From Glycomyces albidus (GTDB lineage Bacteria; Actinomycetota; Actinomycetes; Mycobacteriales; Micromonosporaceae), in assembly GCF_009451885.1 (NCBI RefSeq), contig NZ_WIAO01000004.1, forward strand, positions 62,001 through 126,000: a DNA stretch of 64,000 bases, given 5' to 3'. Positions 2,792-62,944 of the stretch are shown here, one piece after another. The first letter of the stretch is position 1. Each line of letters opens with the position of its first letter. The notes under the pieces were generated by a model. That model was not told where the DNA came from, ran no database searches, and worked only from the letters and a program-made list of their open reading frames with translations. The position numbers and the translations under genes were made by a program.

Positions 2792-2839
2792 GTTCACCCT
2801 TTGTCCGCCCTTTATTCACCGCTTATCGGTCCCTTAACC
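2792..2839 (+). promoter_or_regulatory. Tandem 11-bp direct-repeat activator site upstream of the DUF4956-VTC operon
   Basis: Four contiguous 11-bp units start at 2792, 2803, 2814 and 2825: GTTCACCCTTT, GTCCGCCCTTT, ATTCACCGCTT and ATCGGTCCCTT, followed by AACC. T/CTTA-type cores recur every 11 bp, which is the layout bound by dimers of OmpR/PhoB-type response regulators. Units 1 and 3 resemble the GTTCACC core of the Streptomyces PHO box. A candidate -10 (TACGGT, 2850-2855) lies just downstream, so the last unit covers the -35 region, as in class II activation. The last two units share CTTATCG-N3-CCTTAAC with the site at 6398-6423. The rest of the 2615-2908 gap holds no gene that I can see. 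Confidence 0.65.
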
Positions 2840-2908
2840 TCCGGGCCCATACGGTTCCTCCAGTGCCGCCGCGAAGGCGGCCGTCCGCATCCACTGAGGA
2901 GGAACGCC

Positions 2909-3514
2909 TTGAGTCTCGCGCTCGCACTCGCCCTGCCCGTCGACCTGTTCGCGATCACCGTGCTCGCGTGCGCGATCTACTACCGGCGGCACCGGCGCAC
3001 CGACCTGGCGCTCGCGTACGTCGCGTTGAACGTGGGCGTCTTCTCCGTCTCGGCGCTCATGCTGTCGCAGCAGGTCAGCCTCGGACTCGCGTTCGGGCTG
3101 TTCGGGGTCCTGTCGATCCTGCGGCTCCGGTCCGACCAGATCTCGCAGCGCGACGTCGGCTACTACTTCACCGCGCTCGCGCTGGGGCTCATCAACGGGA
3201 TCGGGGCGTCCCGCCCGGCCGTCATGATCGGCCTGTCGGTCCTCCTGGTGGCCACGATGTACGTCGCCGACCATCCGCGGCTGGCGAACCGGTCCCGGCA
3301 CCGCATGATCGTCCTCGACACCGTCCACCGCGACGAGCAGCGCCTCCGCGAGGACCTCGAGCGGCGCCTCGACGCGCACGTCGCCAAGTTCGAGGTGATC
3401 GACACCGACTACGTGCGCGAGACGATGACCGTCGACGTGCGGTTCCAGCCGCACGCCTCACCCGTGCGCCAGATCCCCGGCGAGCGCACCGTCCCGCTGG
3501 CGAGGACCCGATGA
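2909..3514 (+). CDS. DUF4956-family membrane protein
   Basis: I choose the TTG at 2909 because GAGGAGG lies 7 bp upstream and the protein then begins directly with a hydrophobic segment; the in-frame ATG at 2801 lies inside the regulatory repeats. The 201-residue product has a hydrophobic N-terminal helix, then two or three more membrane segments up to about residue 115, and a soluble C-terminal domain. The SILRLRSDQISQRDVGYYF stretch is typical of DUF4956. Genes of this family are commonly paired with VTC-domain genes, as here, with a 4-bp ATGA overlap. The biochemical role is unknown; a link to polyphosphate or membrane polymer metabolism is inferred from the partner only. Confidence 0.82.
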   Translation: MSLALALALPVDLFAITVLACAIYYRRHRRTDLALAYVALNVGVFSVSALMLSQQVSLGLAFGLFGVLSILRLRSDQISQRDVGYYFTALALGLINGIGASRPAVMIGLSVLLVATMYVADHPRLANRSRHRMIVLDTVHRDEQRLREDLERRLDAHVAKFEVIDTDYVRETMTVDVRFQPHASPVRQIPGERTVPLARTR

Positions 3515-4379: not shown

Positions 4380-5642
4380 TCACTGACCGAGTTCGAGCCT
4401 GATGAGCGCGCCCCGGCCGCCCGGGCCCTGGCCGAACACGAGCTGGCCGCCCGAGGCGGCGGCGGCGCGCCTGGCGATGTCCAGGCCCAGCCCCGTGGAG
4501 CCGCCTTCGCTGCGGCCGCGCTGGAACACCCCGAGGTTCGGCAGCCCCGGACCCTCGTCTGCGACGTCCACTGTGGCCCCCGAGTCGTAGCGCGGCGTCA
4601 GCCGGACCTCGAACGCGGTCCCGTCCGGGGTGTGCTCGAAGACGTTCGCCAGCAGCGCGTCCATCGCCGCGGCGAGGTCGGCGGCCGACAGCCGCACCGG
4701 CAGCGGCCCGGGCGCGAGCCGCGCCCGGCATTCCCGGGCGGTGTCCTCGGCGAGGGCCGACCAGAACTCGACGCGCTCGGCCACCACCGCGGCCGCGTCG
4801 CACCTCCCGGCCTCCGCCGGGTTGCGGGCGTCGCGGATCGCCTCGTTCACGGCCCGCTCCACGTCGGCGACGGCCTGCTCGACCGGTTCGCGCTGCGCGT
4901 GGTCGCCGAGCGCCTCGGTCTCGAGCTTGAGCACCGTGAGCGGGGTCCGGAGCCGGTGCGAGAGGTCGGCCACGCGTTCGCGCTCGGCTTCGAGGAGCTC
5001 CCGGATCCGGTCGGCGAGCGTGTTCAGCGCCGTGCCGACGTTCCGCAGCTCCGCCGGCCCGCCCGCGTCGGCGCGGGCCTCCAGGTCGCCGTTCGCGAGC
5101 CGGTGAGAGACGGCCTCGAGGTCGTTCAGCGGCACCAGGATCACCCTCGCGAGCCGCCACGCCAGCAGCAGTCCGAACCCCAGGAGCAGCAGTGCGATCG
5201 AGCCGAGCAGCAGCCACGAACGGGCCACACCGGCGGTGAGCCGCTCGTCGGGGACGTAGACGCGGATGACGGCCACCTGCCCGTCGACGTTCACGCTGAA
5301 CAGGACCTCGCGGCCGCCCTCGGCCTCGGCGGTGACCGAGGAGCCGCGGGACGCGAGCTCGACCGCGTTCGAGCGCGGGGCGTCGACACCGCTGAGCGTC
5401 CCGTCGGGCCAGAACACCGTCACCGGGTAGTCCGTTCCCGCATTGAGGTTCTCCACCGCGGCCTGGGCCGCGGCGCGGTCGCCGGAGCTGACCGTCGCGA
5501 CGAGCGTCTGGCCCTCCTGCTCGGCGCTGTCGACGGCGTACTGGGCCGCACTGTTGCGCAGCAGGATCGCCATCGGGATCGAGAACGCCAAGAGGATCAG
5601 ACTCGCGGTCGCGGCCACGAGCAGCGTCAGCCGGGCCCTCAC
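4380..5642 (-). CDS. Sensor histidine kinase (HAMP-HisKA-HATPase)
   Basis: The 420-residue protein starts at a GTG that overlaps the response-regulator stop (GTGA). Membrane segments lie at about 6-27 and 143-162 and enclose a ~115-residue extracellular sensor region with no recognisable fold. A HAMP linker (163-215) leads to the H-box DLSHRLRTPL with phospho-acceptor His229. The ATPase domain has an N-box Asn333, G1 ADEGPGL (361-367) and G2 GSTGLGLDI (381-389). All catalytic motifs are intact. It would phosphorylate the regulator encoded just upstream. The signal is unknown. Confidence 0.93.
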   Translation of the reverse strand: MRARLTLLVAATASLILLAFSIPMAILLRNSAAQYAVDSAEQEGQTLVATVSSGDRAAAQAAVENLNAGTDYPVTVFWPDGTLSGVDAPRSNAVELASRGSSVTAEAEGGREVLFSVNVDGQVAVIRVYVPDERLTAGVARSWLLLGSIALLLLGFGLLLAWRLARVILVPLNDLEAVSHRLANGDLEARADAGGPAELRNVGTALNTLADRIRELLEAERERVADLSHRLRTPLTVLKLETEALGDHAQREPVEQAVADVERAVNEAIRDARNPAEAGRCDAAAVVAERVEFWSALAEDTARECRARLAPGPLPVRLSAADLAAAMDALLANVFEHTPDGTAFEVRLTPRYDSGATVDVADEGPGLPNLGVFQRGRSEGGSTGLGLDIARRAAAASGGQLVFGQGPGGRGALIRLELGQ

Positions 5643-6337
5643 CGCGCACCGCCCGCCGGGTCCACGAGCTTCACGCCGACGCCGCGCACCGTGTGCAGGA
5701 ACCGCGGCTCCTGCGCGGTCTCGCCGAGCTTGCGGCGCAGCCACGCCAGGTGCACGTCCACGGTCTTGTCGGCGCCGCCGAACGGCAGGTCCCACACGTC
5801 GGTGAGCAGCTGCCGCTTCGCGACCACCTCCCCGGCCCGCGCCGCGAGGTAGTGTAGCAGGTCGAACTCCTTGGGGCTCAGCTCGAGCGGTCGCCCGTCC
5901 AGATGCGCCGAGCGTCCGCGCGGGTCGATCCGCAGCGGCCCCACGACCACCGCCGCATCGACCGCCGCCGCGCCCGCGCCGACGCGGCGCAGCACCGCCT
6001 GGATGCGCGCGTCGAGCTGCTTGGCGGTGAACGGCTTCACCACGTAGTCGTCGGCGCCCGATCCGAGCACCCGGACGATCTCGTCCTCGTCGTCGCGAGC
6101 GGTCGCCACGATCACCGGCACGTCCGAGACCCCGCGGAGCATCCGCAGCATCTGCGACCCGTCGAGGTCCGGCAGCCCGAGATCGAGCACGACCAGGTCG
6201 GGCCGGTCGTCGATCGCCGCGCGCAGCCCCGTCATCGCATCGGGCGCGGAGGCGACCTGGTGGCGGAGATCCCGCAGCGAACGCATCAGCGCCGTGCGGA
6301 CCCGCTCGTCGTCTTCGATCAGGAGGAGGTGGGCCAT
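5639..6337 (-). CDS. OmpR/PhoB-type response regulator
   Basis: The 232-residue protein begins MAHLLLIEDDE at the ATG at 6337, which I prefer over the upstream in-frame codon at 6376 because it aligns with the family start. The receiver domain has acidic residues at 9-10, phospho-acceptor Asp52 in LDLGLPDLDG and Lys101 in VVKPF. The C-terminal ~100 residues form a winged helix ending in the TVRGVGVKL wing. It is co-transcribed with the kinase at 4380-5642. The 11-bp-phased repeats at 6398-6423, about 60 bp upstream, are a likely binding site for autoregulation and for control of the divergent gene. Confidence 0.94.
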   Translation of the reverse strand: MAHLLLIEDDERVRTALMRSLRDLRHQVASAPDAMTGLRAAIDDRPDLVVLDLGLPDLDGSQMLRMLRGVSDVPVIVATARDDEDEIVRVLGSGADDYVVKPFTAKQLDARIQAVLRRVGAGAAAVDAAVVVGPLRIDPRGRSAHLDGRPLELSPKEFDLLHYLAARAGEVVAKRQLLTDVWDLPFGGADKTVDVHLAWLRRKLGETAQEPRFLHTVRGVGVKLVDPAGGAR

Positions 6338-6397
6338 GGCCGGAATGCTATGCGCAGATCCCCGCGACGACCACACCCCGGGAGCGGCCCGCGAAGG

Positions 6398-6423
6398 CTT
6401 AGAGCCGCCTTATCGCGGCCTTA
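6398..6423 (+). promoter_or_regulatory. Three CTTA repeats at exact 11-bp spacing between response regulator and divergent gene
   Basis: CTTA occurs at 6398, 6409 and 6420, an exact 11-bp period, as expected for tandem OmpR-family binding. The last two repeats read CTTATCG-N3-CCTTAAC, the same 17-bp pattern found at 2822-2838 ahead of the DUF4956-VTC operon. The site lies in the intergenic region of the two-component system and the gene at 6450. Only 26 bp separate it from that ATG, so the plus-strand transcript may be nearly leaderless. Binding by the neighbouring regulator is inferred. Confidence 0.65.
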
Positions 6424-6449
6424 ACGATCCGCGCGGCAAGCTTGGTGCC

Positions 6450-7044: not shown

Positions 7045-9413
<2,369 letters not shown>

Positions 9414-61912: not shown

Positions 61913-62944
61913 ATGCCTTCCTGGTCCCTCCTCCCCCGCCGCGCGCTGGCCGCATTCGCCGCGCTCGCGCTCGCGCTGCTCGGCGTCCTCGCCCTCGACG
62001 CCGCACCGGCCGAAGCGGTCCGCCCGCCCGGCATCCCCTCGACCGCGACCGCGCAGGCCGAGCTGAACGCCCTCACGGTCGCCGCCGAATCCCACGGCTC
62101 GAGCTACGACCGCTCCCTGTTCCCGCACTGGAAGTCCGTGAGCGGTACCGGAAGCTGCACCGCCCGCCAGTACGTCCTCAAGCGCGACGGCCAGAACGTC
62201 GTCACCGGCGACGGCTGCCAACCGACCTCCGGCCGCTGGCAGTCCGACTTCGACAACACCTGGACGACCACCGTCTCCAACGCCACCATCGACCACGTCG
62301 TGGCCCTCTCCGAAGCGTGGGCCTCCGGCGCCTGGGCCTGGACCACCGCCGAGCGCCAGGCGTTCGCCAACGACATCAACTCGCCCCAGCTCTGGATCGC
62401 CACCACCTCCGCGAACTCCGCCAAGAGCGACTACGACCCCGCCGAGTGGATGCCCGTCAACACCACCGGGCTGCGCTGCGACTACGTCAAAGCGTGGACG
62501 CACGTCAAGTACCTGTACGACCTCACCGTCGACTCGGCCGAGAAGTCCGCGATCCAGTCGCACCTGACGAACTACTGCGGCTCGACCGGCGGCGACCCGA
62601 CCGGCTGCACCGGATCGAAGACCACCGCCGCCGCGATCCCCGAGGGCCCGCCGCTGAACTCGACGATCACCCTGTCCTGCACCGGGACCGCATCCTCCAG
62701 CGGCCGGATCACGGTGAGCGTCACCCACCAGTACAGCGGCGACATCGCGATCGCGCTCATCGCTCCGGACGGCTCGAGCTACACGCTCAAGTCGTCGAGC
62801 GGCTCGACCACGCCGAACGTCAACACCACGTACAGCGCCAACCTGTCGAGCGAATCCCGCTCCGGCACTTGGACCCTGCGTGTCACCGACACCTACTCGG
62901 GCGGCTCCAGCGGCACCCTGAACAGCTGGTCGCTGACGATCTAG
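61913..62944 (+). CDS. Secreted HNH-type nuclease with C-terminal P-domain-like region
   Basis: The 343-residue protein has a signal peptide (about 1-36, ending AEA), then a DUF1524/GmrSD-C-like HNH domain with the DHVVALSEAW metal-His motif near residue 127, WIATTSANSAKSDYDPAEWMP and flanking cysteines. From about residue 230 a second domain (TITVSVTHQYSGDIAIALIAPDGSSYTL-like order, ending GTLNSWSLTI) matches the proprotein-convertase P/jelly-roll domain. The ATG at 61913 follows AGGAG. It is probably an extracellular nuclease for nutrient scavenging or competition. Confidence 0.87.
   Translation: MPSWSLLPRRALAAFAALALALLGVLALDAAPAEAVRPPGIPSTATAQAELNALTVAAESHGSSYDRSLFPHWKSVSGTGSCTARQYVLKRDGQNVVTGDGCQPTSGRWQSDFDNTWTTTVSNATIDHVVALSEAWASGAWAWTTAERQAFANDINSPQLWIATTSANSAKSDYDPAEWMPVNTTGLRCDYVKAWTHVKYLYDLTVDSAEKSAIQSHLTNYCGSTGGDPTGCTGSKTTAAAIPEGPPLNSTITLSCTGTASSSGRITVSVTHQYSGDIAIALIAPDGSSYTLKSSSGSTTPNVNTTYSANLSSESRSGTWTLRVTDTYSGGSSGTLNSWSLTI

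Follow-up and report, generated by a model that had tools for sequence, protein, structure and literature searches.

Paired CTTA-repeat operators suggest a small two-promoter regulon of a two-component system in Glycomyces albidus

Response regulators of the PhoB/PhoP group act on PHO boxes, 11-nucleotide (nt) direct repeats that are bound head-to-tail, and for PhoB a contact with sigma has been reported (PMC4415409, PMC7866108). Among actinobacteria, CutRS of Streptomyces is a conserved two-component system with a small regulon in which CutR binds TAWATAAA (PMC12802291). A gene group comprising DUF4956, a polyphosphate polymerase and cotH has been reported next to Pel clusters, as an accessory of exopolysaccharide clusters in streptococci, clostridia and bifidobacteria (PMC7112168).

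Here we compare with these systems a locus of Glycomyces albidus that lies in a stretch of 64,000 nt (the window; positions 62,001 to 126,000 of contig NZ_WIAO01000004.1) and in which two promoters share a motif of CTTA repeats. As in the PhoB and PhoP systems of Escherichia coli and Streptomyces, an OmpR-family regulator is paired with 11-nt head-to-tail direct repeats; unlike the PHO boxes, with half-sites CTGTCAT or GTTCACC, the half-site here is CTTA[AGT]C, and the regulator belongs to a different family. The likeness to CutRS lies in a conserved actinobacterial system with a small regulon, but the shared motif differs from the published CutR word, and CutR was rejected as the binder on a comparison of the two words. 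The likeness to the Pel-associated group, in which DUF4956 also stands beside a polyphosphate polymerase gene, rests on a DUF4956–VTC gene pair. Motif, promoter layout and conservation together make it likely that the local regulator binds the arrays at both promoters and activates a divergent gene for a membrane-anchored protein together with the DUF4956–VTC operon. An unstudied two-component system would thereby gain an operator word, targets at two promoters and a protein partner that is conserved with it, which makes its regulator, signal and output directly testable; a little-studied bacterial VTC operon would acquire a defined input from signalling; and the operator word could be used for target searches in other actinobacteria. 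A name for the system was not found in the literature searched, which left most subscription journals outside, and this is weak evidence of novelty.

The response regulator P0001 (5639–6337, reverse strand) consists of a receiver domain (PF00072) and a C-terminal winged helix (Trans_reg_C, PF00486), both above their cut-offs, which makes it a member of the OmpR/PhoB type. Its receiver holds LDL with D52 and KPF with K101, presumably the aspartate acceptor and the conserved lysine. None of its best 25 NCBIfam models was reached at its own cut-off: the top two, from the actinobacterial systems CseB/CseC (CseB, 175.6 bits against 350) and MtrA/MtrB (MtrA, 168.7 against 300), fell far short, and PhoB scored 165.9 against 296.2, so that P0001 was rejected as PhoB, CseB or MtrA proper by these equivalog cut-offs. 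The solved structure closest to it by sequence is PrrA (1ys6). The sensor histidine kinase P0002 (4380–5642, reverse strand) carries HAMP, HisKA and HATPase_c domains. Divergent from the regulator gene lies the gene for P0003 (6450–6953, forward strand), an acidic protein that has a hydrophobic helix at its N terminus, called the anchored protein below. A DUF4956 membrane protein gene with a TTG start (2909–3514, forward strand; PF16316, E = 1.7e-58) overlaps the gene for the VTC-domain protein P0004 (3511–4266, forward strand; PF09359, E = 1.5e-28, 100.4 bits where the cut-off is 23), which by its domain match is likely to be a polyphosphate polymerase; a sequence search of the PDB with P0004 gave no match at E <= 1. 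Around the locus, sulfotransferase-like and family 2 glycosyltransferase genes (624–2614) keep their positions in all 11 genus regions fetched, and atpD (7045–8472) is in place in 10 of them, the last contig stopping short of it.

The initial annotation had described CTTATCG-N3-CCTTAAC as a pattern found only twice, which holds for the whole genome. The window copies lie at 2822–2838 and 6409–6425, with no further match at up to two mismatches, a threshold at which shuffling predicts 0.03 matches per window; the 5.76-Mb genome contains two exact matches to this 17-mer, none with one mismatch and seven with two. At up to three mismatches, 79 genome matches compare with 66 for the reversed pattern, and the informative form is therefore the near-exact one only. 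The bare CTTA-N7-CTTA was rejected as a motif because it is not enriched in the genome (nine matches, three of them at the two operators, against 13 for the reversed pattern): the signal is carried by the extended motif together with its conservation, and the 11-bp spacing by itself is unremarkable. A site had been placed at 6398–6423; there is a real site here, but the 17-mer occupies 6409–6425, and 6398 is the start of the first of three CTTA units. Operator 1 (6398–6425, forward strand), in the gap between the regulator and anchored-protein genes, comprises CTTAGA (6398), CTTATC (6409) and CTTAAC (6420) in 11-bp steps, and operator 2 (2811–2838, forward strand), upstream of DUF4956–VTC, comprises TTTATT (2811), CTTATC (2822) and CTTAAC (2833) in the same steps. 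That each site has a third unit had been missed, and so had three further features: a fixed distance of 11 nt to a −10-like hexamer, conservation beyond the genus and what may be a PHO box at the DUF4956 promoter.

The −10-like hexamers are CAAGCT for the anchored protein (6437–6442, forward strand; 11 nt past CTTAAC, with the ATG 7 nt further on) and TACGGT for DUF4956–VTC (2850–2855, forward strand; again 11 nt past CTTAAC). The last CTTAAC, N11 and [TC]ANNNT follow one another in 23 of 23 genus promoters, with CANNNT in all 12 anchored-protein promoters, where it is a poor −10 match, and TANNNT in all 11 DUF4956 promoters. Across the genus the anchored-protein hexamer ends 6–7 bases before the ATG, and its mRNA is therefore probably leaderless. 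A sigma-70-type −35/−10 pair was found at neither promoter. The usual spacing between these two elements is 16–18, and PhoB takes the position of the −35 box; by analogy, the succession of array, N11 and −10-like hexamer is the layout that would be expected of an activator replacing the −35 box. The regulator's own promoter has a −10-like TAGCAT (6345–6350, reverse strand) 7 nt before its ATG, and by eye a TANNNT stands 6–7 nt before the ATG in all 12 genus sequences. Operator 1 lies 61–88 bp upstream of the regulator start codon, and its geometry suits the opposite promoter.

Within the genus, sampled as 22 genomes (this one and 21 others), the motif follows the regulator. An orthologue is present in 12 genomes, at 87–94% identity in the 11 others, and the remaining ten have weaker relatives only (best E 2.9e-47 to 5.1e-43). 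A slightly relaxed motif, CTTATCNNNNYCTTAA, gives 21 matches, all in the 12 regulator-bearing genomes (12 in the regulator/anchored-protein gap and nine before DUF4956) and none in the ten genomes without the regulator, against a single match for the reversed pattern. Further relaxation to STTADCNNNNNSTTAAC gives 25 matches, 23 of them at the two promoters, against 11 when reversed; the two additional DUF4956 sites read CTTAGCG, and the two off-target matches both fall in genomes that lack the regulator. The near-exact motif, which could have been scattered at random, is thus placed by the whole-genome and genus scans at the two promoters. The triple array of operator 1 is found in 12 of 12 regulator-bearing genomes and the array of operator 2 in 11 of 11 with a linked DUF4956 gene, its middle unit being CTTAGC in two. 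The anchored-protein gene holds the same place in all 12 (48–77% identity in the other 11), and the linked DUF4956 gene is present in 11 (79–91% in the ten others) and missing in G015. The genus alignment has the CTTA units as islands amid variable DNA, in genomes that are related and so not independent. In one genome (L134) the regulator/anchored-protein gap is 101 nt, compared with 111–113 nt in the other 11, about one helical turn less.

Beyond the genus, 98 of the 296 genomes of the class have relatives of the regulator at E <= 1e-65. We collected 91 upstream regions, part of the listed homologue matches, from close homologues (55–74% identity), including some second copies within a genome; rough removal of regulators at least 90% identical left 69. 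On the strand that reads away from the regulator, pairs of [CG]TTA at 11 bp are present in 32 of these 69, and on the other strand in four, compared with one of 79 other OmpR-type regulators and a mean of 0.13 (maximum 2) in shuffles. The 79 controls come from many phyla at 31–48% identity, and only 23 have G+C-rich upstream DNA; none of those 23 has the pair. At the other spacings from 8 to 14 bp, no [CG]TTA pair was seen on the same strand of the 69 regions. Looser forms behave similarly, with [CGT]TTA pairs in 37 of 69 regions and in just 7 of the 79 controls (0 of 23 G+C-rich) and [CGT]TT[AG] pairs in 42 of 69 against 14 of 79 (2 of 23). The strict pair is absent from 37 of the 69 distant homologues, the [CGT]TTA pair declines with regulator identity (15/18, 10/18, 8/16 and 4/17), and a −10 geometry with N9–14 fits just 16 of the 45 distant loci that have a pair. 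One locus of another genus, L406, is the only case found outside the genus with all five genes in the same order (identities of 72% for the regulator, 57% for the kinase, 59% for DUF4956, 55% for VTC and 30% for the anchored protein); it has arrays at 11 bp of four units at the DUF4956 promoter and three at the anchored-protein promoter, and by eye both promoters keep N11 to [TC]ANNNT. Conservation beside orthologous regulators, on which the idea of a local regulon depended, is thus seen in the genus, in the distant homologues bearing the strict pair and at L406.

The output genes are distributed otherwise: DUF4956 or VTC was found in none of 11 regulator regions of 12–19 kb from other genera (L145, L146, L148–L156), a count from which the L147 region, just 3.2 kb long, is left out. 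An order-wide search for CTTATCNNNNYCTTAA matched 54 of 397 genomes, nine of them within this genus, and most of the other 45 bear a CTTATCCG-type string. In 21 such outside loci (L272–L292, about 3 kb each), no match was found at E <= 1e-5 to the regulator or seven other window proteins, and CTTATCNNNNYCTTAA was rejected on this ground as an operator marker beyond the genus. At L275–L292 there is another string, CTTATCCGNNCCTTAA, with G as the usual next base, and it recurs across many genomes from other genera.

We propose that the response regulator encoded at 5639–6337 recognises an operator whose core is the shared motif. Once phosphorylated by the kinase, regulator molecules would bind the 11-bp units head-to-tail, and the bound regulator, standing in for the −35 box as PhoB does, would recruit RNA polymerase; the anchored-protein gene, with its probably leaderless mRNA, and the DUF4956–VTC operon would be switched on together. 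From about −61 to −88 the same array may also activate the regulator's divergent promoter, but such autoregulation, which the initial annotation had included, is the weakest step and no stronger than possible. Control of the anchored-protein gene and of DUF4956–VTC, by comparison, is well supported at the level of sequence, and the suggestion of a small regulon of the local two-component system draws support from a motif that is confined to two promoters and follows the presence of the regulator.

An alternative is that a different regulator, such as PhoP or MtrA, binds the arrays and that the neighbouring two-component system is incidental. Tandem repeats of 11 nt are used by other OmpR-type regulators too, and a PHO box may be present in the DUF4956 promoter as well; its 11-nt units GTTCACCCTTT, GTCCGCCCTTT and ATTCACCGCTT (2792–2824, forward strand) are in register with operator 2 and overlap it. 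Compared with GTTCACC, these units read GTTCACC, GTCCGCC and ATTCACC; GTTCA 22 nt before [AT]TTCA is kept in 8 of 11 DUF4956 promoter orthologues, and GTTCACC-type units lie upstream of pstS in the same genome. The loose two-unit pattern is frequent, with 79 genome matches at up to two mismatches (four for its reversal), so that a single loose match means little. A PHO box was rejected as the sole explanation because GTTCA is absent from all 12 anchored-protein intergenic regions of the genus. With that absence, the occurrence of the motif in every genus genome that has the local regulator and in none that lacks it, and the way in which the array tracks this regulator's family outside the genus, binding by another regulator is very unlikely.

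Repression from the arrays, or a mainly autoregulatory role that leaves the two targets unactivated, is also unlikely. An array just upstream of the −10-like hexamers could block RNA polymerase, and operator 1 is within the regulator's own upstream region, but the arrays lie upstream of the −10 and not across it, at a distance that never varies among the 23 promoters, and the lack of a −35-like pair makes an activator the simpler need. A motif that arose by chance, served as a sigma-factor −35 element or was a repeat unlinked to the regulator is largely refuted and scarcely credible: CTTAAC does look like a portion of the −35 box, the order has similar strings at other places and bare CTTA-N7-CTTA is not enriched, yet N11 is too short a distance to the −10 for a −35 box, the 21 outside loci resemble neither the regulator nor any of the seven further proteins used as queries, and the only two near-exact genome copies are both conserved and both in promoters. 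Activation of both targets by the local regulator is thus the reading that we prefer.

The partner in this proposal, the anchored protein, had no Pfam match as P0003, and 39 aligned members have no Pfam family in common (seven families, each matched by one to four members, best E = 0.00027). With a simple script, 75 of the 91 distant loci yielded a candidate divergent protein that starts with a hydrophobic helix; 74 of the 75 have a W within residues 6–35, and 64 have two cysteines 36–76 residues apart in the outer part. W10, G92, C98 and C150 (P0003 numbering) are invariant across the alignment, although the 27 distant members chosen for it came from 40 preselected for a cysteine and an ATG start codon, and the invariance of the cysteines is therefore partly due to selection. 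Our guess is that the protein might feed back on, or otherwise modulate, the kinase.

Repeats at 11 bp are also found at other DUF4956–VTC operons. The genus contains eight paralogous DUF4956 loci (40–45% identity), and each of the five fetched (L157–L161) has another OmpR-type regulator beside VTC; upstream of the DUF4956 gene of this second operon lie CATAG-type and CTATGG repeats spaced 11 bp apart. Among 27 DUF4956 upstream regions (22 from a family search and the five paralogues, all mutually related loci), 22 have a 5-mer repeated at 11 bp, against a mean of 5.1 and a maximum of 11 in 300 shuffles, and four, with shuffles averaging 0.007, have a strict PHO-like pair, always in reverse orientation and close to the start codon. 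The broader picture, which we put forward as evenly balanced between right and wrong, is of a widespread and apparently undescribed actinobacterial cassette of three genes (regulator, kinase and a divergently encoded protein, membrane-anchored and with two cysteines in its outer domain) joined by a [CG]TTA[GA]C 11-bp operator from this genus to distant families. Here it would have captured a DUF4956–VTC operon whose promoter is maybe shared with phosphate control, and DUF4956–VTC operons in general would tend to follow 11-bp repeat operators of the OmpR type that differ in their half-sites.

At L394, L395, L397 and L405, PHO-box-like pairs of [GA]TTCA at 11 bp lie in reverse orientation about 13–14 nt from the DUF4956 start codon. 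In two other genera (L385 and L387; L407, L408), an OmpR-type regulator with 39–41% identity to P0001 is encoded directly upstream of DUF4956–VTC in the same direction.
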